Origin: an uncultured Chitinophagales bacterium
GTDB lineage: Bacteria; Bacteroidota; Bacteroidia; Chitinophagales; JAHDHT01
Length of the DNA: 64,000 nucleotides
NCBI GenBank assembly: GCA_938023075.1
Contig: CALHDG010000184.1
Location: 1 to 64,000, forward strand
Direction of reading: 5' to 3'
Position numbers and translations under genes: made by a program. The notes beneath the pieces are model-generated. The model saw only the letters and a list, made by a program, of their open reading frames with translations, searched no databases and was not told where the DNA came from. Positions 2,192-58,108 of this stretch are shown here, one piece after another. Position 1 is the stretch's first letter. Each line of letters starts with the position of its first letter.

Positions 2192-5100
2192 ATGATTAGT
2201 CGAAAACTATTTTTGGAAAAATTGCTTAGTAAAACGATTATACCTGCCATATTAGTTGTAGATAAAAAATTGAACATTGAATATCATAGTTTAAATACGG
2301 CACAATACCTTACACTACCCAAAACTTTTACCAATTTAACACAATTAGAAACTCGAAGTAAAATAGCATTTAGCACTATTTTTCAGACAGCCGTCAGTTC
2401 CATTAAAAATTTTAAGGATGTTAAAGTTGCTGAAAATCTTTATGTCAACAACAAAAACTATTCAATCAATTTAACAATTCAAAAGCTGCCTACAAGATCT
2501 TTAAAAGAAGTATTGTTCTCCATAAGCATTTCAAAAAGTAAGGAGGTTGAAGTTGAACGATTAGAAAATTTTACTCAACTCGATAAAACAGATAAAACTC
2601 AGCAAGTAAAATTTTCGGAAAACAGATTAAGCAATACACAGGTTGACTTAGATTTTTTAAAAAAGGAAAATGAACAATTAAAAATAGAGTATAAGAATAT
2701 TCAGAAGAATTTAGATCACTTAAAAACAGAATATGACATCAATTTAAGTAAACAGTATGAACTAAATTTTTTTATGACTGAAATGCTTAAAAACACCAAT
2801 GTTGCTACGGTTTTTTTAAATATAGAATTTCAAATTATTAAATATACACCTTTACTAAGTAAACTATTTGATGTAGAAAAAGGAGACATCGGCAGAAAAA
2901 TTACAGACTTTAATCACATTTTTATTAGTGACGATTGGAACGTTTATTTGAAAAAAGCAATAAAAACGGGTAAAAGAATTGAAGTAAAATTAGCGGCTAA
3001 AGAAGATCAATATTATTTAATGATTATTAAACCGGCTAAGTTCAGCCATTTTAAAAACAATGTTTTATCAGTTTCTTTCATTGATATAAGTAATGAGGTT
3101 AAAAATAATCAAGCCAAAATAGAATCAGAACAAAAATTCAAAACCTTATTTGAATCGGCAGTTGACGGAATGGCAATTATTGATTTAGATAAGGGTAACT
3201 TTATCGCCTCCAATAAAAAAATGCCTCAGATGTTAGGCATTACTAAAACAGCCTATCTCCAATCCAAACCCATCAATTTACTTCCCAAATTGCAGTCAGA
3301 CGGAACAAAATCTACAGAATTACTTGAAAAATTACATGACGGGCTTAATCAAAAAGGGTATGTCTCAATAATTGCTGAATATCAGCATAAAACCAAAGGC
3401 ACTTTTTTTGCTCGCTTAAGCAAATACAAATTTCCTGCCCCTCAAAAAAACTACGCTGCAGTGGTTTTGCAAAATATTGATACCGAAATTAAGGCTATTG
3501 ATGCACTTAAACAAAACCAAGTGCAACTGCAAGAGGCAGAAGGCAGATATAAATATTTATTTGAAAATTCGGTTGATGGCATCGTTGTTTTTAATTTAGA
3601 AGAATTGAAGGTTGTACAAGTAAACCAACGTTTAGTAAAAATGTCGGGTTTTACGAAAGATGAAATTATTAAAAAAGCTCCTTTAGGTTTGTTAACCGAA
3701 TTTTTAGAAGATGGAAGCTCAACTCAGCAACAATACTTTAAAATGTTAGCTGAATTAAAAACTAAAAAGCTATGTGCCGGCAATTTTATACATCTGCATA
3801 AAACCAAGGCAGCCTTTCATGTTAAAGTTAATATTTCTAAAATGCCTAAACCACATCATCATTTAATAGCTGTTTTTATTAGGGATATTGATGCCCGTAA
3901 AAAAGTAGAAGCTGAAAGTGCAAGGCGTTTAACACAATTAAAAGCATCCGAAGCCATGCATAAGGCATTTTTCTACCAATCATTAGATGGGCATATTATC
4001 TTACATAAAGAGGATATGATGCTGGTTGAAGTAAATGAGCAGATGCTTCAGATTATGCGTATTTCTAAAACGGAATATTTTAAAACCGACCCTGGCGATT
4101 TTTTTGATGCGGAGAATAATACTTTCGATCTAGCTCAAACTTTTAATGATTTTCGGGCTTGCCTTCAAAAAAACATCCCTTATGAAATAGAGGTGTACAT
4201 AAAATCTAAAAACAGAAAATCTTTTTTAGTAAAGGTATTAATTAATCAGCTACCTGCACCTAATGAGCATTTGGTTTATGCCGTTGTTAAAGATATTGAT
4301 AAAGAGCGCAAAGCGGAAGAAGCTACCAAGATGAACTTAAAAGCCTTAACTATTTCCGAATCGAGACATAAAGCCTTCTTTAATCAATCCTTAGATGGAC
4401 ATGTTATTATAAATTTAGAAGATATGATGCCGGTTGAAGTGAATAAGCGTATGCTTCAAATGTTGCGTATTTCTAAAACCGAATATTTTGCAAACCCTTT
4501 CGATTTGTTTGATGCTGAAATTAATCCTACTAAACTGGAAAAAATGTTTCAAGACCTTCAAGTCGGTTTAGAAAAAAACAACACTTTTGAAACAGAATTT
4601 TATATAAAATCTAGCAAGAGACCATCTTTTTTAGTAAAAGTATTAATTCATAAACTTTCTGCTCCAAATCATCATTTGGCTTATGCCGTTATTAAAGATA
4701 TTGATAAAGAACGCAAAGCGGAAGAAGCCACAAAAACTCACTTAAAAGCTTTAACTGCATCCGAATCCATGCACAAAGCCTTCTTTAATCAATCGTTAGA
4801 TGGGCATATTATCTTACATAAAGAGGATATGATGCTGGTTGACATCAATCAGCAAATGCTAAAGATGTTGCGTATCTCCAAACGTGCATATTTTGAGACC
4901 AAAACTAAATCGTTCAATCGTTCGCTTCCTGATTTTTTTGACGAAGCCAATAATACCATTAGCAAAGAACAGCTTTATAAAAACATAGCTGCTCAATTTG
5001 AAAAAAACTTGCCTTACGAAGCAGAAGTATATCTAAGCTCTAAAAACAGAAAACCTTTTTTAGTGAGAGTATTACTCAATCAACTACCGTCACCCAACCA

Positions 5101-8100
5101 ACATTTAGTTTATGCTGTTATTAAGGATATTGATAAAGAACGCAAAGCCGAATTGGAATCAGAAAAGCACTTACAGGCTTTAAAAACCTCTGAAAGCATG
5201 TTCAGAACTTTATTTGAAAATGGGATGGATGGTTTTGGGATTGGTCAACTATTACCTCATCCGAAAACTATTAATGTGAATCCTGCCGCGTGTAAGCTGC
5301 TTGGAATGACGAAAAAAGAGGTATTACTTGCTAATCCGATACAACTTTTGTCTCCATCTCAAGACAATGAGAAAAGCCAAACCGAAACGATGGAGAAAAT
5401 AGTTCAGTCGCTACATAAAAATGGGCACTTTGCCGGAGATCTACAATATGTACACAAAAAAAACGGATCATTTTATGTAAAAGTAAAAATGGTTAGACTT
5501 AATGCTCCTCATCAAGATAAAGTGTTTACGCAAGTATCTAATAAAGATAAAGAAGTAAAAGCATTACAAGCGGTGCAGAAATCAGAAGCACTGTTCAAAA
5601 GTATATTTACCAACTCTTTAGATGGCATTGTAATTTATAATATAGATAATATCAAAGCCATTAAATTTAACGAACGTGTTTTAAAAATGACAAAATGCAC
5701 GGCTCAGGAATTTAAAAATGCAAATCTCTTAGATTTTTTACCCAAAAAACAACCCAATGGAAAAGAGAGTTTTCCAATTTTTAAACAATACTTAGCAGCG
5801 GTTACCGAAAATATAAGCATCCGTAAAGAGTTTGTATTTAAAAAATATCAATCTAACGAATTGGTGTACACCCGAATTTCCGTTATTAAATTACCTATGC
5901 CATTTACGAATTTAGCCGTACTTTCCATTGCCAATATTACCAAAACTAAGTTGGCTGAAAAGGCTATTATAGAAAAAAATCAGTCGATTGAACAAGTTAA
6001 CCAGCAACTCAATGTAAGCTTACAAAAATTTAAAGATACCTTTGATAATACTTCTATTTATATTGCCCGGTTTAATTTAGATGGTCATTTAATAGAACAT
6101 AATACAAAAGTTTATAACAATTTGTTAGAAAAAAATGTTGTTGCCAATAAAATTTCTGTTTGGAATTTGCCCCGTTTTAAAAAGCATAAAAAATCTCAAC
6201 AACAAGTTAAGCTCGATTTTGAACTAGCCAAAAAAGGGCAAAGCACTAAAAGTCAAGTAGTTTATACGGTGTCTCCTAACTTTTCTGGTATTTTAGAATA
6301 TACTTTTAAACCATTAAGAAATGAACAAGGTGATATATTTACCATTTTATCAGAAGGCTATGATGTAACCGAACAGGTAAACGCCTTGAAAAAATTAAAA
6401 TTTAATGAACAGAAATTTAGAGCTATTTATAATAACTCGAATAGTTTTATAGGCATTTTTAGCACCAAAGGTGTTATTTTAGATCATAATCAAGTTTTGA
6501 ATGAACACTTAATAGAACAAGAATCACCAACTGTTGGCATACCTTTTTGGGATTTTCCCTGGTTTGCTGAAGGAAAAAATACGCCGCAAAAGCTTAAAAC
6601 CGGTATTAAAAATGCTGCCAAAGGCAAATTGGTAAAAGGTTATGGCTGCTATAATAAAGCTAGCGGGGTAAAAAGTAATATGCAATATTCAATTACCCCC
6701 ATTTTTGATGAAGACGGTAAAGTGATTTGGCTATTGGGTGAAGTAACCGACATAACCGAATTAGCCAATGCCCAAAAGAATCTGAAGTTAAAAGAACAAA
6801 AATTCAGAGCTATTTTTAACAATTCCATTAACTTTATTGGTATATTCAATACCACAGGCATTATATTAGAACTTAACCAAACGGTAACGGATAACCTTAG
6901 CCAAAAAGAGATCAATACAATTGGTATTCCGCTGTGGAATTTCCCTTGGTTTTTAAATCATGAAGATACGCAACAAGTCTTTAAAAAAGCTATTCGTCAG
7001 GCAGCAAAAGGGCTAAAGGTTGAAGGAATAGTTGACTATACGGTTTCGGCTAACTTTTCGGGTACTATGCAATATACTATTAATCCTATTTTTGATGATA
7101 AGGATAAAGTAGTTTGGATATTAGGGGAAGGTAAAGACATTACCGAAATTACCAATAAGAATAAAGAACTATCTTACAAAGAGCAAAAATTCAGAGCTAT
7201 TTTTAATAATTCCAGTAATTTTATTGGTTTATATGATACTGATGGATACGTTGATGAGTTAAATGAACTACTGTTAAAACAAAATGGTGAAATTGAGCTT
7301 TCTGGCACTACTAAGAAAGTAAAAGTGTGGAATAGACCACTTATTAAAAATCATAAAGAAAGCCAAAAAACATTTAAAGCAAGTTTTGAAAAAGCACTAA
7401 AGGGTGAAATTAGCAAGGGCATCATGCAATATCAACCAGTAGTAAAAAATGAAATTAGAATTGTTGAATATACTTTAAGCCCCATTTTTGATGATAGCAA
7501 AAAAGTAATTAAAGTTTTAGGAGAAGGAAAAGATATTACGGAAAAGTTAGAAGTTCATAAAGAAATTGAAGCCAGCGAAAAAAGATTTAAAGATTTATTT
7601 TACAACGCGAATAATAGAGTTGTTAGGTTATCTCTGGAGGGTAAAGTAATTGCTCATAATAAAATTCATAGAGGTAGAAAAAATTATGCGACAACCAAAA
7701 AATATATAGGTAAATACTTATGGGATTTTTTAGCAGACGGCAACACTAAAACATCTTTCCGTAAAATTAAACACGATTTTAATAAAGCAGTTAAGGGCGA
7801 GTTAGTTTCAAGTACATTCTCAGTCACAAACGCTAAAAACGAAAAAAGAATACTAAGCTATAGCTTAAAGCCTGTTTTTGGTGCCCATAAAAAAGTGGAT
7901 TGGATTTTAGGAGAATCGAATGACATTACTGAATTTACCAATGTTCAAAAACAAGTACTTAAAAATGAACAAAAATTTAGAGCCATTTTTAACAACTCCA
8001 GCAATTTTATTGGTTTATATCAATTAGATGGCACTATTGAAGAACTCAATAAGCCGATATTAGAGCAAATTCCTACAAGAAAGCAAACAAAACTTATTGC

Positions 8101-11050
8101 CGGACTAAAAATATGGGAAATACCGCTCTCAAATGGTTTCAAAAAAACTATTAAACAAATATTTAAGGATAGCTTAGAAAAGGTGCTTAAAGGCGAAGTC
8201 TATAAGAGTACAGCCCAGTATTCTATTAATGCCACAGAAGATGTTTGTATGGAGTTTACCTTCAGTCCGGTTTATAATGAATACCATAAGGTATTTAAAG
8301 TTTTAGGTGAAGCCAGAGATATAACTGAACAAACCAATTCAAAAAAACAAATTGAAGCCAGCGAAAAAAAATTTAAAGCATTATTTTTTAATGCAGAGAA
8401 TTTGGTGGTAAGGTTAGCACCCAATGGAAGAGTAATTGCTCATAACAAAATACAAAAAGAGAACAATGATTATGATCAAATAAAAAATTATATTGGCAAA
8501 TATTTGTGGGAACTACCCGATGTTGTTGACAATACTGAAGCTCAAACGCAACTTAAATTACATATAAAAAAGGCAGCAAAAGGCAACTATGTTACTGGCA
8601 CTATTTTCTCTAAAGGAACTAATTATGTTCCTCTACAGTTAGCTTATAGTTTAAAACCCATTTTTGGAGCAGATAATAAAACAGTTGAATGGATTTTAGG
8701 CGAAGCTCGCGATATTACGGAATTTATTGAAACCCAAAATCAACTACTGGAAAATGAACAAAAATTTAAAGCGATTTTTTACAATTCGGAAAATTTTATA
8801 GTGCGTTTAGATGCTAAAGGGAATGTTTTGGAGCATAGCCGTATACATACTAGTAATCCTCGATACAATATAGTAAAGCGATACCTTGGCAAACCGCTTT
8901 GGGAGTTTTCAGGTATTATGGAACATCCCGAATCTATTGCTAAATTAAAAAAAGATATTAAAGCATGTGCTGCTGGCAAAGTGATTTCTAATCAAATTTC
9001 TATTCGAATCTATAAATTAGATAATAAAGAAAACAAAGAAGCATACAAGATCGGATTGGTTGTTTATTCTTTAAAACCGGTATTTAACAAGAGCAATAAG
9101 GTTGATTGGATATTAGCTGAGGCAAAAGATATTACTGCATTAGACAATGCGAAAAATGAATTGTCAATCAGTTTAAACAAATATCAAAAACTATTTGAAA
9201 ATAATTTAGTAGGCATACTTACTTTAGATGAAAACTTAAAATTAATTGAATGTAATGAAGCGTATGAGAAAATTACCGGATATTCTCATAAAGACTCAGT
9301 ATCATTTGATTACTATGCTTTAATTGATGAAGATGAAATAAAAGAAGCTAAGTTAAATGAACATAAAATTAGAACTACTAAGGTTAAAGAGTTACAATTT
9401 AAACGAACACTTATTAAAAAGAATGGCGATAAGATATTTGTACACATTTATTTAAAGCCAATTTATTATGAAAATAAATTTAGCAGTGCAGTGGTTACTA
9501 TAGCTGACATTACCGAGTTGGAAAATAAAAGAAAAGCACTGAAACAAAGTGAAGAGTTATACAAAGCTGTTTTTGAAGGGGTTAATGATGGACTTTATGT
9601 CTATGACGTAAAAAAGAATGAAATTGTAACTTTTAATGAGCAGCTTTTACAAATTGCAGGTGTTAAAACTAAGTCACAATTTTTAAAAGAAGCAAATAGT
9701 TTGTTTATACCTTATCTAAAAGGAAAAAATCAAAAAAAAATTAATTGGATTAGAAAAATAGGTGGGCATTTAAAGCACGAAAAAATTGCAAAATTTGATT
9801 TTAGCTTTGAAAAAGCCAATGGTAGCTTGCTTGATATCAGCACTTCAACTATTAAATTATCAGATGCGCTTTCGTTAACAGCAGTTACCGATATTACTGA
9901 AACTAAAAAAGCCCAGAATGCTTTGTTAGAAAGTGAAACAAAATATCGTTCTTTATTTGAAAATAATGTAACCGGAATTGCAATGGGCAACAAATCAGGT
10001 GAAATTTTGCAAGTAAATGAAGCGTTGTGTGCTATGTTTGGGTATTCCAAAACCGAAATGCTTCAATTAAAACATCAAGATTTGACGGTACAGGGTGCAG
10101 ATGATCAATCTTATATCCATTTTAAAGCTATGGTTGACGGTAAGTCAAAAAAATTCTCTGCAACTAAAGAATTTGTTAAAAAAAATGGAGACACGTTTTA
10201 TGCGATTATTTTTGTTAGTGGTATTTACAATAGGCAAAACAATTTCAAATATAATATTACCAGCATTTCAGATATTTCTGAATTGAAGCACTTAGAAAAC
10301 GAATTAAAAGATAAGCAAATTGAATTGGCAGATAAAGTTGTTGAGTTAGAAAAATACATCGAAAGTAATCTTGAATTAGAAAATTTTGCATTTATAGCCT
10401 CTCACGATTTAAAATCACCCACTCAAACAATTATCAATTTTTCTAACTTGCTTAAGCAAAAAGCAGAAGGTAAATTAGATGAATACGAGCAACAATTTCT
10501 ACGGTATATTATTGATGGTTCTAACAGACTGCAAGACACCATTAACGATTTATTGAATTTTTCATTAGCCAATAACAATAGCCTTAATATTAAAAAAGTA
10601 AATTTGAATAACTTGCTAAATGTAGTGATAAATGATTTAGATAGTGTTATTAAACAAACCAAAGCAACCATAACCATTAATAACTTGCCCCCTTTTAATT
10701 GGGTAGATGAAGGATTGTATAAAGGATTATTTTTAAATTTGATTACTAATGCAATGAAGTTTCAAAAAAAAGGCACCCGACCCTTAATTAACATTAATTG
10801 TAAAAAAACACCAATTGGTTACCTTTTTTCTATTGAAGACAATGGTATTGGTATTCCTAAAAAATCTCAACAAAAAATATTTGGTATATTTAAACGCTTG
10901 CATGTTTATAGCGAATTTGAAGGAACCGGTATTGGATTAGCTTTATGTAAAAAAGTTGTGGAAAGACATCAAGGGAAAATTTGGGTAGAAAGCGCCAAAG
11001 GCAAAGGAGCAAAATTTTATTTTACTTTACCAGAAAATTTGAGTATCTAA
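2192..11050 (+). CDS. Giant multi-PAS sensor histidine kinase
   Basis: A 2952-residue protein with no signal peptide or membrane span visible, so probably a soluble sensor. A PAS-like N-terminus and a coiled coil (about residues 145-195) precede a further PAS module and then 18 tandem PAS modules. Each of the 18 begins with a variant of E-x-x-F/Y/H-x-x-x-F-x-N-S. The first group carries the LDG signature, the middle group NFIG. The C-terminus is a HisKA domain (ASHDLKSP, phospho-acceptor about His2738) and a HATPase_c domain with N box NLITNAMKF, DNGIGI and GTGIGLALC. A single-domain response regulator starts 36 bp downstream and is the likely partner. The signal sensed cannot be read from the sequence. 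PAS modules 3-5 share near-identical DNA, pointing to recent internal duplication. Confidence 0.93.
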   Translation: MISRKLFLEKLLSKTIIPAILVVDKKLNIEYHSLNTAQYLTLPKTFTNLTQLETRSKIAFSTIFQTAVSSIKNFKDVKVAENLYVNNKNYSINLTIQKLPTRSLKEVLFSISISKSKEVEVERLENFTQLDKTDKTQQVKFSENRLSNTQVDLDFLKKENEQLKIEYKNIQKNLDHLKTEYDINLSKQYELNFFMTEMLKNTNVATVFLNIEFQIIKYTPLLSKLFDVEKGDIGRKITDFNHIFISDDWNVYLKKAIKTGKRIEVKLAAKEDQYYLMIIKPAKFSHFKNNVLSVSFIDISNEVKNNQAKIESEQKFKTLFESAVDGMAIIDLDKGNFIASNKKMPQMLGITKTAYLQSKPINLLPKLQSDGTKSTELLEKLHDGLNQKGYVSIIAEYQHKTKGTFFARLSKYKFPAPQKNYAAVVLQNIDTEIKAIDALKQNQVQLQEAEGRYKYLFENSVDGIVVFNLEELKVVQVNQRLVKMSGFTKDEIIKKAPLGLLTEFLEDGSSTQQQYFKMLAELKTKKLCAGNFIHLHKTKAAFHVKVNISKMPKPHHHLIAVFIRDIDARKKVEAESARRLTQLKASEAMHKAFFYQSLDGHIILHKEDMMLVEVNEQMLQIMRISKTEYFKTDPGDFFDAENNTFDLAQTFNDFRACLQKNIPYEIEVYIKSKNRKSFLVKVLINQLPAPNEHLVYAVVKDIDKERKAEEATKMNLKALTISESRHKAFFNQSLDGHVIINLEDMMPVEVNKRMLQMLRISKTEYFANPFDLFDAEINPTKLEKMFQDLQVGLEKNNTFETEFYIKSSKRPSFLVKVLIHKLSAPNHHLAYAVIKDIDKERKAEEATKTHLKALTASESMHKAFFNQSLDGHIILHKEDMMLVDINQQMLKMLRISKRAYFETKTKSFNRSLPDFFDEANNTISKEQLYKNIAAQFEKNLPYEAEVYLSSKNRKPFLVRVLLNQLPSPNQHLVYAVIKDIDKERKAELESEKHLQALKTSESMFRTLFENGMDGFGIGQLLPHPKTINVNPAACKLLGMTKKEVLLANPIQLLSPSQDNEKSQTETMEKIVQSLHKNGHFAGDLQYVHKKNGSFYVKVKMVRLNAPHQDKVFTQVSNKDKEVKALQAVQKSEALFKSIFTNSLDGIVIYNIDNIKAIKFNERVLKMTKCTAQEFKNANLLDFLPKKQPNGKESFPIFKQYLAAVTENISIRKEFVFKKYQSNELVYTRISVIKLPMPFTNLAVLSIANITKTKLAEKAIIEKNQSIEQVNQQLNVSLQKFKDTFDNTSIYIARFNLDGHLIEHNTKVYNNLLEKNVVANKISVWNLPRFKKHKKSQQQVKLDFELAKKGQSTKSQVVYTVSPNFSGILEYTFKPLRNEQGDIFTILSEGYDVTEQVNALKKLKFNEQKFRAIYNNSNSFIGIFSTKGVILDHNQVLNEHLIEQESPTVGIPFWDFPWFAEGKNTPQKLKTGIKNAAKGKLVKGYGCYNKASGVKSNMQYSITPIFDEDGKVIWLLGEVTDITELANAQKNLKLKEQKFRAIFNNSINFIGIFNTTGIILELNQTVTDNLSQKEINTIGIPLWNFPWFLNHEDTQQVFKKAIRQAAKGLKVEGIVDYTVSANFSGTMQYTINPIFDDKDKVVWILGEGKDITEITNKNKELSYKEQKFRAIFNNSSNFIGLYDTDGYVDELNELLLKQNGEIELSGTTKKVKVWNRPLIKNHKESQKTFKASFEKALKGEISKGIMQYQPVVKNEIRIVEYTLSPIFDDSKKVIKVLGEGKDITEKLEVHKEIEASEKRFKDLFYNANNRVVRLSLEGKVIAHNKIHRGRKNYATTKKYIGKYLWDFLADGNTKTSFRKIKHDFNKAVKGELVSSTFSVTNAKNEKRILSYSLKPVFGAHKKVDWILGESNDITEFTNVQKQVLKNEQKFRAIFNNSSNFIGLYQLDGTIEELNKPILEQIPTRKQTKLIAGLKIWEIPLSNGFKKTIKQIFKDSLEKVLKGEVYKSTAQYSINATEDVCMEFTFSPVYNEYHKVFKVLGEARDITEQTNSKKQIEASEKKFKALFFNAENLVVRLAPNGRVIAHNKIQKENNDYDQIKNYIGKYLWELPDVVDNTEAQTQLKLHIKKAAKGNYVTGTIFSKGTNYVPLQLAYSLKPIFGADNKTVEWILGEARDITEFIETQNQLLENEQKFKAIFYNSENFIVRLDAKGNVLEHSRIHTSNPRYNIVKRYLGKPLWEFSGIMEHPESIAKLKKDIKACAAGKVISNQISIRIYKLDNKENKEAYKIGLVVYSLKPVFNKSNKVDWILAEAKDITALDNAKNELSISLNKYQKLFENNLVGILTLDENLKLIECNEAYEKITGYSHKDSVSFDYYALIDEDEIKEAKLNEHKIRTTKVKELQFKRTLIKKNGDKIFVHIYLKPIYYENKFSSAVVTIADITELENKRKALKQSEELYKAVFEGVNDGLYVYDVKKNEIVTFNEQLLQIAGVKTKSQFLKEANSLFIPYLKGKNQKKINWIRKIGGHLKHEKIAKFDFSFEKANGSLLDISTSTIKLSDALSLTAVTDITETKKAQNALLESETKYRSLFENNVTGIAMGNKSGEILQVNEALCAMFGYSKTEMLQLKHQDLTVQGADDQSYIHFKAMVDGKSKKFSATKEFVKKNGDTFYAIIFVSGIYNRQNNFKYNITSISDISELKHLENELKDKQIELADKVVELEKYIESNLELENFAFIASHDLKSPTQTIINFSNLLKQKAEGKLDEYEQQFLRYIIDGSNRLQDTINDLLNFSLANNNSLNIKKVNLNNLLNVVINDLDSVIKQTKATITINNLPPFNWVDEGLYKGLFLNLITNAMKFQKKGTRPLININCKKTPIGYLFSIEDNGIGIPKKSQQKIFGIFKRLHVYSEFEGTGIGLALCKKVVERHQGKIWVESAKGKGAKFYFTLPENLSI

Positions 11051-36035: not shown

Positions 36036-37007
36036 ATGGAAAATAAGTCAAATTTCATATCTATTTTATCTGACTATGGATTTAAGTTAACTTTTGGAAA
36101 CAAAGCAGATACAACTTTTTTACGAAAAGCATTACAGGCAATTATTTTAAATGAACGTCCCATTGAAGCCATAGAGTTTTTGAGTAACGAATTTATTGGA
36201 ATAACCAAAGATGCCAGAGCAGGATTATACGATTTGATTTGTAAAGATGAAAACGATAATTCTTTTATCGTAGAAATGCAATTGGGCTATTATCCGCATT
36301 TTATACAACGGTCTAAATTTTATGCTTTTCATCGTTTTAATACATTGGTAGATAAAGGTGACTACAAGTTTAAAAATTTAACACCCATTTATTGTATTGG
36401 ATTTTTGGCTAATAATATCTTTCCTAAATCCAAAGAATATTTCCATTTTGGAAAGCTGAGGAATCAAAAAGGAGAAAATATGGACAATCAAATTGTGCAT
36501 ATTATTATAGAAATTGATAAATTTGACAAAAAGCTAAGCGATTTAAGAACAGATTTAGATAAATTATTATACCTTATGAAGAATCACGAAATTATTGAAA
36601 AGATGAAAGAATTACCCGAGGTATTGTCGGAAGGATGGATAGAAAAAGCATTACAAAAATTTGATAAAAGTAAAATGACTGCGGACCAACGCATGCACTT
36701 TGAAATGATGTTGGCAAGAAATGGAAGTATAATAGAAATGCAGGAAGCCGAAGGTAAGCGGATAAAAGAGGAAAAAGAACGCGCAATTAAAGCAGCAGTC
36801 GAAGAAAAAGAACGTGAAATTGAGGCTAAAGAACGGGAAATAAAAGCAGCAGTTGAAGAAAAAGAACGGGAAATTGAGAAAATAAAAAAACAAAGCATAA
36901 TTAACCAGGTAAAAGCATTAAAAGCAGGTGGAGTTGATAAGGCTATTATATCAAATATTACTGGTTTAAGTATTGAAAAAATTGAAAAATTATTAAATGA
37001 CGATTAG
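36036..37007 (+). CDS. Rpn family PD-(D/E)XK nuclease/putative transposase
   Basis: A 323-residue protein. The N-terminus (ILSDYGFKLTFGNKADTTFL) and core (GLYDLICKDENDNSFIVEMQ, supplying D...ExQ of the PD-(D/E)XK fold) are those of the Rpn/transposase-like nuclease family, whose E. coli members promote recombination. The C-terminal third is a charged helical repeat: IKAAVEEKEREIE occurs twice, with an 18-codon spacing. A final helix-turn-helix-like segment (LKAGGVDKAIISNITGLSIE) may bind DNA. It lies between sdhA and sdhB, an unusual place, suggesting it arrived by insertion. Confidence 0.88.
   Translation: MENKSNFISILSDYGFKLTFGNKADTTFLRKALQAIILNERPIEAIEFLSNEFIGITKDARAGLYDLICKDENDNSFIVEMQLGYYPHFIQRSKFYAFHRFNTLVDKGDYKFKNLTPIYCIGFLANNIFPKSKEYFHFGKLRNQKGENMDNQIVHIIIEIDKFDKKLSDLRTDLDKLLYLMKNHEIIEKMKELPEVLSEGWIEKALQKFDKSKMTADQRMHFEMMLARNGSIIEMQEAEGKRIKEEKERAIKAAVEEKEREIEAKEREIKAAVEEKEREIEKIKKQSIINQVKALKAGGVDKAIISNITGLSIEKIEKLLNDD
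36789..36878. repeat. 54-bp-spaced tandem repeat in the Rpn gene
   Basis: The 36-bp unit AAAGCAGCAGTYGAAGAAAA... occurs at 36789-36824 and 36843-36878 with two base differences, an offset of 54 bp (18 codons), encoding a repeated charged helix. The unit number could vary between strains. Confidence 0.8.
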
Positions 37008-50998: not shown

Positions 50999-51841
50999 AT
51001 GAGAGAACTCATCAGTTTTTTCTTAAAATATAACGTGTTGTTTGTTTTCATTTTATGCGAAACCTTGTGTTTTTATTTATTGAGTACTTACAATACATAC
51101 CACCGGGCAAGTGCGGTAGCTTCTTCTAATGCTATAACAGGTTCATTGTTTAAAATGTCGAACGATGTGGCTGATTATGTAGGATTAAAAGGCGAAAATG
51201 AAACCTTGCACAACGAAAATGCGCGATTACGACAACTGTTGTTTAACCAAAATTCTGATGAACTTAAAAGAGATACCTTGGTCGAACCAATTGAGGTAAC
51301 AGTCGATTCTGTTCACCTAAGAAGCTACGTTTTTACAGCCGCAAAAGTCATCAATAACTCTACAAACGGCTTATATAATAATATTACCATTAACAAAGGT
51401 TCTAAACATGGCTTTAAGCCCGATATGGGTTTGGTAAGTGCTAATGGTGTGGTAGGCATCATTAAAAATGTATCTACTAATTACAGTTCGGCTATGAGTT
51501 TGTTGAACAAAAATTTAAAGCTTACTGCTAAAATTAAACAATATACCGGCTCTTTTGCCTGGGATGGTATGGATGCCCGATATGCTCAATTAAAAGAAGT
51601 ACCGAACCACGCCAATATCCAGAAAAATGATACCATTTCTACCAGTGGCTATTCCTCTATTTTTCCAGAAAATTTTATGATTGGAACTATTGAAGATTTT
51701 GAATTAAAAGAAGGCAGTAACTTCTATGATATTAAAATAAAATTGGCAACTGATTTTTATAAACTACGTAGGGTAGACGGTGTTGAAAACCTGAACCGGA
51801 AAGAACAAATTGAATTAGAGTACAGCACAGCCAATGAGTAG
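50999..51841 (+). CDS. mreC: Rod shape-determining protein MreC
   Basis: A 280-residue elongasome protein. One N-terminal membrane helix (VLFVFILCETLCFYLLS), a coiled coil (GLKGENETLHNENARLRQLL) and the periplasmic beta-rich MreC domain (KVINNSTNGLYNNITINKGS, MGLVSANGVVGIIKNV) are all present. It contacts PBP2 in the periplasm. It overlaps the mreD start by 8 bp. Confidence 0.95.
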   Translation: MRELISFFLKYNVLFVFILCETLCFYLLSTYNTYHRASAVASSNAITGSLFKMSNDVADYVGLKGENETLHNENARLRQLLFNQNSDELKRDTLVEPIEVTVDSVHLRSYVFTAAKVINNSTNGLYNNITINKGSKHGFKPDMGLVSANGVVGIIKNVSTNYSSAMSLLNKNLKLTAKIKQYTGSFAWDGMDARYAQLKEVPNHANIQKNDTISTSGYSSIFPENFMIGTIEDFELKEGSNFYDIKIKLATDFYKLRRVDGVENLNRKEQIELEYSTANE

Positions 51842-52346
51842 TTTCAACGTCAACCAAATATTAAATTTCCTATTTTTAATTGCGCTGCAAGTGTTGGTGT
51901 TAGATAATGTAGAGTTGCATCGGCTGGTTCGCCCTTTAATTTATCCGCTTATTATTTTACTGTTGCCCATTGCCATGCCCGGTGCCTTAGTCATTATTCT
52001 TTCGATGGTATTAGGTTTGATTATTGATGTATTTAACGATACCTTAGGTTTGCACGCCTCTGCCTGTGTATTTATGGCATTTTGCCGTCCTTTTGTGTTG
52101 AGCATTTTTCGTCCGAGAGGTGGTTACGAGCAATTTGCGATGCCCTCTTACCAAAAGCTCGGTTTAAGCTGGTTTCTGCGCTACGTTGGTCTATCTATAT
52201 TTTTGTTTAACGCCTTCTTTTTTCTGGTAGAAGCCTTCAACTTCCGGTTTATCCATTTAACGCTGTTCAAAATCATTTTAAGCACTATTTTCTGTTTGTT
52301 ATTAATTTTAATTCATCAAATGTTGTTTGCGCGGACTAAGGTTTAG
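51834..52346 (+). CDS. mreD: Rod shape-determining protein MreD
   Basis: A 170-residue integral membrane protein with about five helices, in the position and size of MreD. The ATG overlaps the mreC stop region, which implies translational coupling. In most Bacteroidota mrdA (PBP2) follows at once; here a two-gene block on the other strand and a repeat intervene. Confidence 0.92.
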   Translation: MSSFNVNQILNFLFLIALQVLVLDNVELHRLVRPLIYPLIILLLPIAMPGALVIILSMVLGLIIDVFNDTLGLHASACVFMAFCRPFVLSIFRPRGGYEQFAMPSYQKLGLSWFLRYVGLSIFLFNAFFFLVEAFNFRFIHLTLFKIILSTIFCLLLILIHQMLFARTKV

Positions 52347-52592: not shown

Positions 52593-54095
52593 TCACTCCA
52601 ACCAAAGCAGGCGGCTTACATAAATTTGGTTGTTTTGCCCAGTAGCTTTCAACCAATAAGTACCTTCTTCCAAATGTGTTGGCTGTATTGTAGTTAGGTT
52701 TCCACTAAAAGTTAGCTGTTCTACAACTTGCCCGTTTAAGTTAATAATCTCCAAATCATATGCTTGAAAAACTGGTAATTCCACATGAACCATTGAACTG
52801 GCAGGATTTGGATAAAGACTAAATTGTTCAACCATCTCAGTATTAAAAATACCCGTATCTAAGGTATCTAACTTAAGTTGGTAGATACTCATAGTATTGC
52901 CACCCTTTTCTCTTAAAGAAACATAATGATGCTTGTCATCAGGATGAAAGGTAAGCATATTGTATTGATCTAAATTTTCGAAGGCATAGTACGCCAATAC
53001 TTCGCCAAACTTTTTTAAAAACAAAGTATCGTTGCGGTATACAATACATTCATCTTTTTGGGTGCAGTAACGGATTAACTCGCTGTTTCCATCTCTAAAC
53101 ATCCGATTGCCTTTAGAGTTTATAAATTCATAGGTAGATTCATTGGTGCCTTCATAATAAACGTGTACACCATTAGGAGTCGGTTTCACATACTTAAAAA
53201 TAAATCCTTCTAAACCGTGATATTGCCAATTAACCTTAGCTTGCTTAACGTTAAATGAAGCGATAATATAATTATAACCACCCTGAAATGGCTTTCTGGC
53301 ATCATAGATAACATAAACAATGGAATCATTAACCGGAAAAATGGGATTATAGTCAGGAAATGCAACAGTATTTAAAGTACGATGTTCTTCATTAGAACTG
53401 TTGAATTCAATTTGCTGATACCCTTCTGCACTGCTATAAATTAAGTAGTTTGTAGATGTTGGAGGGTTTGAATTACCATAAGTAGGGGTACTAAGGGCAT
53501 AATAGGATTGATTATCTTGTTTGTAACCCCAATTTAAAACTTTAGGTATAGTTTCGGCTCTCCATACTTGATTTAACTCGTTTTTGCTTATGTTAAATGC
53601 TTGTTCTAATAGCAAAGAATCATTATTCTGCAATCTTCCGAATAGAACAACTTCATTTTGATTGATCATAACATTGTTATAACTTATCTCAATAGGTATA
53701 TTTAAACTATCTAAATACTTATTGGTTAAATTATAGGTATATATGCAGGCTTGTTTATCCCTGCTAATAATATCGTAATTTAAAGCAAAAAGAGATTGTT
53801 GATCATCACCAAATTGAGCTAACCAAAATTCATAAGTATGATAATAGGTCTCGATCAGATATTCAACTGTATCTTTGTTTAACACTATAAGATGTTGGAA
53901 TTCACCACCACCAGTAAAATTACTAGTAACAAATGAAACAGCAATTTGTTTATTTGGTAATGGAATAATTTGTTCTACTTTTGAAAATCCCGGTTTAATT
54001 TTCAACTCATTAATTTTGTTAAGAATTAAAGATTGACCCGAAATGAATAAAGGGCATAAAACAAAAACGATTATATAAACTAACTTATAAGGCAT
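52593..54095 (-). CDS. T9SS type A sorting-domain protein, unknown function
   Basis: A 500-residue exported protein. The signal peptide MPYKLVYIIVFVLCPLFISG favours ATG 54095 over ATG 54116, seven codons upstream. The middle is beta-rich with repeated short strands and may be propeller-like, but no family is recognised. The C-terminus from FSLYPNPASSMVHVEL is a clear type A sorting domain. Its start overlaps the end of the upstream lipoprotein gene by 11 bp, so the two are translationally coupled. Together they sit between mreD and mrdA, on the opposite strand. Confidence 0.85.
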   Translation of the reverse strand: MPYKLVYIIVFVLCPLFISGQSLILNKINELKIKPGFSKVEQIIPLPNKQIAVSFVTSNFTGGGEFQHLIVLNKDTVEYLIETYYHTYEFWLAQFGDDQQSLFALNYDIISRDKQACIYTYNLTNKYLDSLNIPIEISYNNVMINQNEVVLFGRLQNNDSLLLEQAFNISKNELNQVWRAETIPKVLNWGYKQDNQSYYALSTPTYGNSNPPTSTNYLIYSSAEGYQQIEFNSSNEEHRTLNTVAFPDYNPIFPVNDSIVYVIYDARKPFQGGYNYIIASFNVKQAKVNWQYHGLEGFIFKYVKPTPNGVHVYYEGTNESTYEFINSKGNRMFRDGNSELIRYCTQKDECIVYRNDTLFLKKFGEVLAYYAFENLDQYNMLTFHPDDKHHYVSLREKGGNTMSIYQLKLDTLDTGIFNTEMVEQFSLYPNPASSMVHVELPVFQAYDLEIINLNGQVVEQLTFSGNLTTIQPTHLEEGTYWLKATGQNNQIYVSRLLWLE

Positions 54096-56060
54096 ATACG
54101 GTAACGTTATGACCATCCCAATATCTAGTTGTAAAAAATAGACTTATCTCCGGTCCTCCAACAGATTGGCTTGTATCAAAAGACACTTCTTCATAATGTG
54201 TAGTTACAGTATTATATCCATCATTCCAACTATATTCAAGCTCTACTAGCAAGTTAATAAAAGAAGTGTTAGGATCAATGTTGTCCATAAACAATTGCTC
54301 TTCAATAGCATCTAAATATGAATCTGAGTCTACAGTACCAAGTATATTAAGAGTACTCGGATCAACTGGTGGTCCAGAAATGTCTTCCAAATCAATTTGC
54401 TTTCTAAATCCATCAGATGCACTATGGCCAGCATTACCTTGACCAATTGGTCCGAAAGAAATCCAGAATCCAGGCACATTAACCCAAAAATCATACATTT
54501 CATCATAATAATCAGTAGTAATCACAATATTTTTGTTTTTATTAAATGTTGAATTACTAAAATCCGTAAATTTATTTAGAGAATAATTATTATAGTCTGG
54601 TCTTATTCCTGACTTTATTACATTACCATTATTATCATAATCATCACAGGATTGATCATAAGACATATTTGCGAATACTCTCATATCTGGTCCATCAATA
54701 TACCAAAAACTTTTATTCCAAGGAAAGGCAAAATATAAAGGTGGCAGACCAAATGAGCGACGTAGTTTATAAATACCTCCTTGTGCTAGGCCGAAATGAT
54801 ATGGATTGTCATTGGGTCCACCACTGAACGCTCGATGTTCTGCTAAAGATTTAAAAATTGTTTCTCTTTGACATAAAAACAAATCGTTTACACTTATTTC
54901 GGATCCATTACATTCTTGTGCATTTTTAGGATGCCATTCTATTGGTCTGTCAACCTTACTAATATTACCTTTATCAACAAGAAAGTAACCAGATCCATCG
55001 ACCTTTTCCAATAATGCATAGTATCGATCAATAATCGGTACTGGGATGTTATCGGTTAGACACTTTTCAACCATAATATCATTCGCCTTATTAAAACATT
55101 CAGGTGTTGTTAAATTGTGAGTTGTTTTGTCATCAAGGTCATAATCTAGCCATATATATATTTCATCGTGCCTTGCTGGTCCAGGAAAAACTCCAAAAGT
55201 ATTATCTTGTGGAATTAGTGCACCATCATAAGGATTATCACCACAAAATTCACATTTTGGATTAGAAGCACTACATAACTTCAGATGAATATAAGTATCA
55301 TTTGTATTCGTGCCTCCACAATTCGCATTCCTATAATGAGCACAATCTACTAAGGTTGGCCCCTGTATTACTGTAATAACCGCTATTTTTTGCAATGCTT
55401 CGCTCCGTTCAATTTGTATTTGTTCAACATACATATCTTCATCTACTTCAACACCAGGCATTGGGTAACCATCCTCTAGGTGTAGATAACCCATTAAAGG
55501 ATCTTCAGATAAACCATTTATTGTAGCATTATCCATTTCTAAAGAACCCATATCATTTATCTGAATACCACTAATTGTTTCCAAAAATGGTATAAACGCA
55601 TAATACTTTGTCTCATCATCATAAATCATTTCACCAGCATAATCAATACTGTCAGGTAAACTATAAGCGGCACTTATTGCTTCGTTCATCAATTCAGTTA
55701 AATCTATACCTTCTGCTTGGGCAGCTTCAACAATCCGTTTATAAGGTGCAAAATAAAAACCATCTAAACCCTTGGCACATTCTCGATAAATAATGTGAGC
55801 TAAAGAGGTAGTGTTCTCTTTTTTCTGATTAGCATTCCATTGATTTACCGTGTTATTGGCACCATGCAAACCTATACTTAACATTCTTAAATTGTAATAT
55901 GTTTCTTGTGTTGTTAAATTACTATCGGTTGCTTTGCTTTCAACAAGTGGAGTAATTTCTTTTTTACAAGCACTAAAAGTAAATAGTAAAATACAAGACA
56001 GTATTATTAGAAATGATGAAGTTTTCGGGGGGGGGGGAAGTAAAATTGATTTAATCTCAT
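54085..56060 (-). CDS. Phase-variable candidate lipoprotein (out of frame at a G11 tract)
   Basis: The intact part (599 residues from ATG 55884, stop at 54085) has no recognised domain; it includes a Cys-rich patch (CSASNPKCEFCGDNP) and many aromatic and acidic residues. The frame stays open upstream into a lipoprotein signal peptide (SFLIILSCILLFTFSAC, lipobox Cys). The only good start, ATG 56060 (MRLNQFYF), lies beyond a run of 11 C residues (plus-strand G at 56027-56037) and is in another frame. With 11 bases the product stops after 17 codons; with 9 or 12 it would be a full lipoprotein of about 655 residues. This is either phase variation or a homopolymer sequencing error. Confidence 0.8.
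56027..56037. repeat. Homopolymeric G11 tract
   Basis: Eleven consecutive G on the plus strand, within the first 12 codons of the lipoprotein gene read on the minus strand. Such a run is very unlikely by chance in DNA of about one-third G+C. Its length sets the reading frame. Confidence 0.95.
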
Positions 56061-56080
56061 AATATTAATTTTTAGATAAA

Positions 56081-56111
56081 CGAATGTATAGGATTAATTG
56101 GTTATTATCAA
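56081..56111 (-). promoter_or_regulatory. Promoter of the lipoprotein operon
   Basis: Minus strand TTG (complement of CAA 56109-56111), 20-bp spacer, TACATTCG (56081-56088), one mismatch from TAnnTTTG, 20 bp before ATG 56060. Confidence 0.5.
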
Positions 56112-56217
56112 GTTTTTCTTGAAAAAATTATATACTTTTAATTTCTGTTTAGGAATCGTTAAGAAATCTACTAAAGTTAATCACAGCCCAATCATCCTTT
56201 TTGTAAAGTAGGCTTAC

Positions 56218-56225
56218 TATATTTG
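56218..56225 (+). promoter_or_regulatory. -7 box of mrdA-rodA
   Basis: TATATTTG, 29 bp before the mrdA ATG. The nearest TTG (56201-56203) is only 14 bp upstream, too close for a normal -33. This box would let mrdA-rodA be transcribed independently of mreBCD. Confidence 0.5.
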
Positions 56226-56254
56226 CAAATCTAATTGAAGTTTATAAATAATAA

Positions 56255-58108
56255 ATGGGCGATAGAGGAAGGATCATATTTTTTCAAATTTTATTTGGGC
56301 TAGTAGGATTAGTTTATTTAGGGCAATTGTTTGCCTTACAGGTAATTGATGATTCTTTTAAAGAACTGGCAAACGATAATGTGATTCGTAAGTTAACTAC
56401 CTTCCCTACCAGAGGCTTGGTATACGATAGAAATAAAGAACTGATTGTAACCAATGAGCCAGTATACGATATTTTGGTAACCCCACGCCTCGTTAAAAAT
56501 ATAGACACTACCAAATTTTGCACTTTATTAGATATTGATAAGGAGACTTTTGAAAAGAACCTCGCAAAAGCCACCAGGTATTCCCGCTACCGCCCGTCTA
56601 ATTTTATTAAACAAATTTCTAAAGAACAGTATGCTCAATTTCAGGAATATTTATTCCAGTTTAAAGGCTTCTATCCGCAGGTGCGTACTATACGAAAATA
56701 TCCTTTTGCCAATGCGAGTCATGTATTGGGTTACATTGGTGAAGTAAGCGACCGGCATATTAATAAAGAAGACAGTTATTATCAACTCGGCGATTATATT
56801 GGCTTAACCGGCATTGAAAAAGAGTACGAGTTAAATCTGCGCGGAGAAAAAGGCTTTCGGTACATTATGGTAGATGTACACAACCGCGAACAAGGAGAGT
56901 TTGATGCCGGCAATCGCGATCAACCATCTAAAGCGGGCAGAGAAATTAATTTAACCTTAGATATTAAGTTGCAGCAATATGGCGAACAATTGATGCAAAA
57001 TAAAAAAGGGAGTATCGTTGCCATCAACCCAAAAAATGGGGAAGTGTTAGCGATGGTTAGCAACCCAACCTACGACCCCAATCTATTAAATGGACGAGAG
57101 CGGGGCAACAATTTTAGTATACTTTCTAACGATACTTTAAAGCCCTTGTTTAACAGAGCTATTCAAGCCAAATATATTCCAGGTTCTACTTTTAAACCCT
57201 TAGTAGCCTTAATTGCTTTGCAAGAAGGTGCTATCTACGCCAACAAATATTTTAAATGTGGCGGTTCGTACAGAATGGGTAATATGGTTAAGCGCTGTTC
57301 ACACGATCATAAATCTGCCGGTAATGTACCGGTTGCCATTAAAGAATCGTGCAACCCCTATTTTTGGCAAACCTTTAGAGCCTTAATTGAAGGCAATGAA
57401 AACCGCAGCCCCGATCAAGCCTTGCAGGTGTTTAATAATTACTTGTACCAATTTGGCTTAGGTAAACAATTGGGTATTGATTTACCCAATGAAGCCATTG
57501 GCAATGTGCATCGCCCCGAACAATTTGACAGAACCTATGGAGAAGGTCGTTGGGGTGCCACCACTATTATATCGTTGGCAATTGGGCAGGGCGAAATGGA
57601 ATTAACTACCTTACAAATGGCAAATATGATGACTATAATTGCAAATCGTGGTTATTATTATCCACCACATTTGGTACGTCCCATTCCATCTGATACTACA
57701 AAATATCAATTTTATACCAGCCCAAATAGTGTTTCTGTTAATAAAGAACATTTCGAAACCGTAATTAAAGGTTTGGATAAAGTAGGTAAAAGACTGGTCG
57801 AAATATATAAATTTACCGATATTGAAGGTTTAGATATTGCCGGTAAAACGGGTACGGCTGATAATCCACATGGTGAACCTCACTCTTTGTTTTCCTGTTT
57901 TGCTCCAAAAGATAATCCGGAAATTGCAGTAGCCGTAATTGTTGAAAATTCAGGCTTTGGTGCAAGATATGCCGCTCCAATTGCGGGTTTAATGATAGAA
58001 CAATACCTCAATAAACAAATTTCAGAGCGCGGAAAATGGATTGAAGAAAAGGTGTTGGAAATGAATTTTATTAACCCGAAAGAAGAAGACGAAGCAGCGA
58101 ATGAATAG
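56255..58108 (+). CDS. mrdA: Penicillin-binding protein 2 (elongasome transpeptidase)
   Basis: A 617-residue class B PBP. One N-terminal membrane helix (FQILFGLVGLVYLGQLFAL), a pedestal domain, and a transpeptidase domain with active-site Ser311 in STFK, SxN at Ser365-Cys366-Asn367 and KTG at 531-533. Cross-links side-wall peptidoglycan in the periplasm with RodA as glycosyltransferase. The stop overlaps the rodA start by 8 bp. Confidence 0.95.
   Translation: MGDRGRIIFFQILFGLVGLVYLGQLFALQVIDDSFKELANDNVIRKLTTFPTRGLVYDRNKELIVTNEPVYDILVTPRLVKNIDTTKFCTLLDIDKETFEKNLAKATRYSRYRPSNFIKQISKEQYAQFQEYLFQFKGFYPQVRTIRKYPFANASHVLGYIGEVSDRHINKEDSYYQLGDYIGLTGIEKEYELNLRGEKGFRYIMVDVHNREQGEFDAGNRDQPSKAGREINLTLDIKLQQYGEQLMQNKKGSIVAINPKNGEVLAMVSNPTYDPNLLNGRERGNNFSILSNDTLKPLFNRAIQAKYIPGSTFKPLVALIALQEGAIYANKYFKCGGSYRMGNMVKRCSHDHKSAGNVPVAIKESCNPYFWQTFRALIEGNENRSPDQALQVFNNYLYQFGLGKQLGIDLPNEAIGNVHRPEQFDRTYGEGRWGATTIISLAIGQGEMELTTLQMANMMTIIANRGYYYPPHLVRPIPSDTTKYQFYTSPNSVSVNKEHFETVIKGLDKVGKRLVEIYKFTDIEGLDIAGKTGTADNPHGEPHSLFSCFAPKDNPEIAVAVIVENSGFGARYAAPIAGLMIEQYLNKQISERGKWIEEKVLEMNFINPKEEDEAANE

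Follow-up and report, generated by a model that had tools for sequence, protein, structure and literature searches.

A poly-C tract in a Chitinophagales lipoprotein gene as a probable slipped-strand switch, in a genome with poly-C promoter spacers

The window, by which we mean the whole stretch of 64,000 nucleotides analysed here, carries a lipoprotein gene whose reading frame is broken by a run of eleven C in its opening codons. Is this run a device that turns translation on and off, or does it mark a misassembled or decayed gene? Judged from the layout of the DNA, the C11 run is probably a slipped-strand (contingency-locus) switch of lipoprotein translation and one of a set in this genome.

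Reading frames and surroundings of the lipoprotein gene

The locus comprises the following features.

56109..56111, minus strand: -33 element TTG of the lipoprotein gene's own promoter, with a 20-nt spacer (consensus PMC2483708)
56081..56088, minus strand: -7 element TACATTCG, TAnnTTTG with one mismatch (consensus PMC2483708)
56070..56074, minus strand: TAAAA, ribosome-binding-site-like, 9 nt before the ATG (consensus PMC2483708)
56058..56060, minus strand: ATG start codon of the lipoprotein, preceded by the promoter-like and TAAAA motifs
56027..56037, minus strand: C11 homopolymer tract (G11 on the plus strand), codons 8-12 of the lipoprotein leader
56007..56009, minus strand: TAA ending the out-of-frame product at C11 (17 aa), from translation by tract length
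55966..56026, minus strand: part of the signal peptide 3' of the tract, ending in the lipobox FSA-C (Cys codon 55968-55966)
54085..56026, minus strand: body frame of the lipoprotein, uninterrupted between the tract and its stop codon, of no Pfam family
52593..54116, minus strand: secreted protein with a T9SS C-terminal sorting domain, likely start 54095, 11-nt overlap with the lipoprotein gene

The earlier note on this DNA had reported a G11 run at 56027-56037 early in a lipoprotein gene, and the run is indeed there, at codons 8-12. The minus-strand sequence of the gene opens with ATG AGA TTA AAT CAA TTT TAC TT, followed by eleven C (56037-56027) and then by GAAAACTTCATC; 20 nt lie between the ATG at 56060 and the tract. 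The window holds no other C/G run as long as this one, and none was obtained in 100 dinucleotide shuffles. Upstream of the ATG, TTG-N20-TACATTCG and TAAAA fit the consensus for -33/-7 promoter elements and ribosome-binding sites in Bacteroidetes (PMC2483708). Because the gene has its own promoter and ribosome-binding-site-like motifs at this position, we placed its start before the tract.

We translated the gene with tract lengths of 7 to 14 C, and the ATG was joined to the lipoprotein body only at 9 and 12 C. The assembled C11 gives a 17-residue peptide, MRLNQFYFPPPRKLHHF*, with its stop at 56009-56007. More generally, the product ends at 16-18 residues with 8, 11 and 14 C and at 27-29 with 7, 10 and 13 C. 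Re-translation thus agrees with the earlier claim that the ATG is out of frame at the present length and ON at 9 or 12. The ON-frame N-terminus, MRLNQFYFPPP(P)KTSSFLIILSCILLFTFSAC, has a short basic region, a hydrophobic core and the lipobox FSA-C. From the tract to 54085 the body frame runs for 645 codons without a stop, and the signal peptide comes directly after the tract, as had been noted before. Between the last upstream stop of this frame at C11 and the lipobox there is no ATG, GTG or TTG, and the first in-frame ATG of the body (55884) lies past the signal peptide. The locus shows three traits of a translational SSR contingency locus: an uninterrupted 5' coding repeat of at least 8 units, only some lengths in frame (9 and 12), and no alternative start that bypasses the tract. 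Its tract lies downstream of the ATG and not in a promoter spacer, the position that marks SSR loci of the fetA/porA type.

After the lipid cysteine the protein reads C-KKEIT, a partial fit to the LES motif C-X-K-(D/E)2. The form C-X-K-(D/E)-(D/E) was defined in Capnocytophaga as the optimal surface lipoprotein export signal (PMC5080379). Structure prediction gave a mean pLDDT of 34, too low for a fold search. Directly downstream, as stated in the earlier note, follows the T9SS gene, which overlaps the lipoprotein end by about 11 nt; its product has an N-terminal signal peptide and a sorting domain recognised as Por_Secre_tail (E=1.2e-10). The two genes lie inverted between mreD (51834-52346) and mrdA/PBP2 (56255-58108). 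Since mreD and mrdA are contiguous in 13 of the 23 relatives read, with 25-389 nt from the mreD end to the mrdA match, the pair looks like an accessory insertion of a two-gene module into the mre-mrd operon.

We found no homologue of the lipoprotein, and hence no copy with another tract length, among 60 relatives. Two distant homologues were detected in 395 genomes of the class (47% identity over 83 aa, E 1.6e-10; 40%, E 1.9e-4), neither with the leader of the window gene, and a GTDB scan with the lipoprotein alignment recovered only one of the two. Both are followed by an overlapping secreted gene, as in the window; no similarity between these second genes and the T9SS gene of the window was detectable.

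A promoter inversion, the usual and established mechanism in Bacteroides (PMC11868660), might switch this region and leave the tract incidental. The inverted repeats found in 55900-56500, which flank the promoter region, are weak, however (75-79% over 19-24 nt), and inversion would leave the reading frame unmended. We rejected an invertible promoter on the quality of these repeats and regard this explanation as very improbable.

Two other features of the window were noted by eye. Positions 2192-11050 hold one 2952-aa ORF that appears to consist of many tandem PAS-type sensor units with a histidine kinase at its end. At 36036-37007, an Rpn/PD-(D/E)XK-nuclease-like gene lies within the succinate dehydrogenase gene cluster.

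Poly-C runs and a promoter cassette across the genome

To place the tract in its genomic setting, we used pattern searches to count C/G runs in the window's own genome, a draft of 6.12 Mb in 288 contigs that is 97% complete. There are 19 runs of at least 8, nine of at least 9 (1.3-8.5 expected, depending on Markov order) and four of at least 11 (0.03-0.4 expected, with the same dependence). Long runs are in excess and short ones not clearly so. We rejected a general poly-C excess as evidence, given that runs of 8 are not clearly enriched and that relatives have many runs. The telling feature is the position of the runs rather than their number: of the nine runs of at least 9, four are early-coding, four lie in the promoter spacer of a cassette described below, and the ninth frameshifts an LspA-like gene. 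With 3,900 genes estimated, the probability of finding at least three of nine runs within the first 45 coding nt is about 2e-4. That eight of the nine occupy early-coding or promoter-spacer positions favours the switch. The early-coding tracts and the ninth run are listed here, C-numbers denoting contigs of this genome.

Window gene, C11: early-coding tract of the lipoprotein
C124:1852-1860, C9: early-coding tract, ATG-AAA-CAA leader before a lipoprotein with a HEYTH motif
C170:3193-3201, C9: early-coding tract, ATG-AAA-CAA leader before a lipoprotein with a Peptidase_M4_C match (E=1e-10)
C138:24933-24943, C11: early-coding tract, in what is probably a remnant, a short ORF that includes a signal-like segment
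C262:14195-14203, G9 on the coding strand: second LspA-like gene (Peptidase_A8)

The C124 protein has a HEYTH motif similar to that on C170, and both lipoproteins are M4-like. Both genes are ON at 8 and 11 C, and the assembled C9 is out of frame with the first ATG. A second ATG, in frame, stands after the tract and before the signal peptide in each, a start that could bypass the tract, and switching is therefore less certain at these two loci. The G9 run on C262 falls inside the conserved GGxxGNxxDR motif of its gene. With 8 or 11 G the protein reads ...IIGGGIGNIYDR... and has 169-170 residues, while the assembled 9 G ends it at 120; the housekeeping LspA on C99 is intact.

Every translational tract that we examined is out of frame as assembled, which could reflect assembly bias. 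The real tract of the window gene might then have 9 or 12 C and the gene be constitutively on, and homopolymers in short-read assemblies may indeed bear spurious indels (PMC8808543). The Illumina effect weighs most above about 14 bp (PMC8808543), however, and even with a wrong consensus, tracts of such lengths are slippage-prone and the placement of long ones in leaders and spacers stands. We consider an assembly or sequencing error unlikely.

The cassette, about 210 bp long, is dispersed over the genome. Nine copies are full, and two more consist of the 3' part only and are devoid of the promoter.

Full cassette copies: contigs C240, C225, C108, C288, C76, C118, C63, C127 and C129

In the cassette, the poly-C separates the two elements of a Bacteroidota-type promoter, TTG (-33) and TAnnTTTG (-7). 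The TTG is altered in three copies, and the -7 element has TTCG in two. Tract lengths range from C8 to C13, with four runs of at least 9 and several of 8, and the spacers of the nine full copies measure 23, 21, 18, 19, 19, 16, 18, 19 and 18 nt. Across the genome's other upstream regions TTG-N19-TAnnTTTG is the commonest arrangement (3 against 0.16 expected, small numbers), so the cassette spacers of 16-23 nt bracket the 19 nt favoured by other promoters. By sequence, these copies are promoter-spacer SSRs of the fetA/porA type.

Nine of the 11 copies lead into a readable lipoprotein gene and the other two reach contig ends; at least seven lipoprotein genes besides that of the window are headed by a promoter-bearing cassette. 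Mostly a second secreted gene then follows. The cassette-headed lipoproteins are mostly dissimilar in sequence, yet six of the nine carry the full C-X-K-(D/E)-(D/E) motif. A Pfam search with these nine proteins and the window lipoprotein returned nothing above the cut-off. A conserved hairpin in the cassette 5'UTR scored no better than shuffles. Rpn/PD-(D/E)XK-nuclease-like genes, recognised by eye, stand at both ends of C240, flanking its cassette copy.

The copies on C108 and C225 match perfectly on both sides of the tract, over 133 nt upstream and 108 nt downstream (241 flanking bases), and have 8 and 11 C, respectively, which indicates that the tract changes faster than its flanks. The two contigs share their 141 opening bases (C108:1-141 and C225:1-141), and this stretch ends at the eighth C, after which they differ; the assembly thus branched inside the poly-C tract. 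We considered heterogeneity at a single locus as the source of the split and rejected it, because the downstream sequences differ; we took the contigs to represent two loci.

At C118 the tract is interrupted and the cassette-headed gene is fragmented. This locus raises the question of whether the window lipoprotein, its frame broken as assembled, is likewise a recent pseudogene with a fixed frameshift. Its tract is uninterrupted, unlike that of C118, its 645 codons are open, the lipobox is intact and so is the overlapping downstream gene. A body of this length without decay despite the frameshift favours the switch, and we judge a pseudogene to be distinctly unlikely.

RNA polymerase or ribosomes could also slip on C11 and yield some full-length protein at any length, the tract merely setting the level. 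In Buchnera, slippage during transcription of homopolymers is reported to restore the products of frameshifted genes (PMC2831843), but there the runs are poly-A and here the run is of C. Such tolerance would also leave the poly-C in promoter spacers unexplained, and we hold it to be quite improbable.

Poly-C sites in relatives and in the rest of the class

We looked for the same arrangements in other genomes, here given G-numbers as individual comparison genomes; G029 belongs to another family of the order, and G030 and G056 likewise come from another family of the order. Poly-C runs of at least 9 occur in the genomes of 73 of 100 relatives. Most of those inspected are placed elsewhere than at leader or promoter sites, which counts against the switch. 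G029, on the other hand, repeats the plan of the window gene, ATG, leader, C9 and signal peptide, likewise out of frame, and this favours it. In G030 and G056, poly-G runs of 9-12 were seen early in predicted secreted-protein ORFs; these are possible further frame switches.

The cassette was absent from the 100 relatives, and a search of its 5'UTR motif against GTDB, in a collection that may omit the window's own genome, gave no match. A strict search of 395 genomes for poly-C between TTG and TAnnTTTG found 17 sites, compared to 6 when the pattern was reversed. In G018, G088, G102 and G435, which represent other families of the class, sites of this kind precede signal-peptide genes by 60-230 nt, and the genes behind them include a lipoprotein and a probable outer-membrane receptor.

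Proposed switch and its place among known systems

According to our model, replication slippage (slipped-strand mispairing) would add or remove C's at C11. With 9 or 12 C, a ribosome starting at the ATG at 56060 would read MRLNQFYF-PPP(P)-KTSSFLIILSCILLFTFSA-C, and the product would be lipidated and become an outer-membrane lipoprotein. Any other length from 7 to 14 would end translation after 16-29 codons, and the lipoprotein would not be made, the assembled 11 being OFF. The overlapping T9SS gene may drop together with the lipoprotein through the gene overlap. Poly-C sites in this genome would act in two ways, as an early-coding frame switch and, for several lipoprotein genes, by setting the -33/-7 distance in the cassette, where slippage in each copy would shift the promoter elements toward or away from a preferred spacing of about 19 nt. 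Many loci switching independently would produce combinatorial surface heterogeneity.

The on/off switch proposed in the earlier note stands in its architecture, frames included; the wider set of poly-C sites and the placement of the two-gene module between mreD and mrdA go beyond that note. The early-coding tracts, the family of spacer cassettes and the pair with identical flanks and 8 versus 11 C make contingency behaviour likely. The sequence directly shows the architecture, the frames, the genome-wide placement and spacing of the tracts and their variation from copy to copy; slippage in vivo, ON/OFF expression, exposure at the surface and co-switching of the two genes we infer from it.

If poly-C slippage does work on -33/-7 promoters and on lipoprotein leaders, it would form a layer of surface heterogeneity that needs no recombinase. 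Inversion finders would miss this layer, and assemblies would flatten it to one allele or to seemingly broken genes. Among the lipoprotein and T9SS genes that look 'frameshifted' in drafts of Bacteroidota, a part may be OFF alleles. A wider poly-C system would be a more interesting result than the single locus in the window. We see an even chance that in Bacteroidia poly-C slippage is a second phase-variation system beside DNA inversion, with a duplicated cassette whose poly-C independently sets the -33/-7 distance at many surface-lipoprotein loci and with 5' coding switches; an accessory signal peptidase II that can itself be switched may be part of it.

The invertible promoters of Bacteroides (PMC11868660) belong to the same phylum and likewise target surface structures, but their inversion is recombinase-mediated and good-quality repeats of that kind were not found here. 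A review of phase variation assigns slippage switches to Neisseria, Haemophilus, Campylobacter, Helicobacter and Treponema and inversion to Bacteroides (PMC11868660), and in a survey of 99 genomes poly-C/G tracts in general had no 5'-end bias (PMC2831843). The open-access literature yielded no description of poly-G/C phase variation in Bacteroidota, and we provisionally regard it as new to the phylum.

In Mycoplasma hyorhinis, a promoter poly-A switch controls Vlp. The p78 lipoprotein of M. fermentans is switched by a poly-A frameshift (cited in PMC3711429; PMC2831843). These systems resemble ours in having homopolymers on lipoprotein genes, with independent switching leading to combinatorial surfaces. 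They differ in the base of the tract (poly-A versus poly-C), in the promoter type and in the absence of an outer membrane, and the lipoproteins described here are mostly dissimilar.

The closest parallels are found in Neisseria (PMC5320596). Its 5' homopolymer genes also have poly-G/C near the 5' end of a surface-protein gene, with one phase in three ON. There tract variation and switching are proven, whereas here they are proposed from sequence, in another phylum, and the window gene has its tract in the n-region of the signal peptide, in a lipoprotein without a known family. In fetA, as in the cassette, poly-C lies between the promoter elements (PMC5320596), the runs being C10-C14 in fetA and C8-C13 in the copies of the cassette. 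The tract of the window gene itself is coding and outside the promoter, while the cassette promoter differs from that of fetA in being of the Bacteroidota -33/-7 type and in that one cassette serves many genes.
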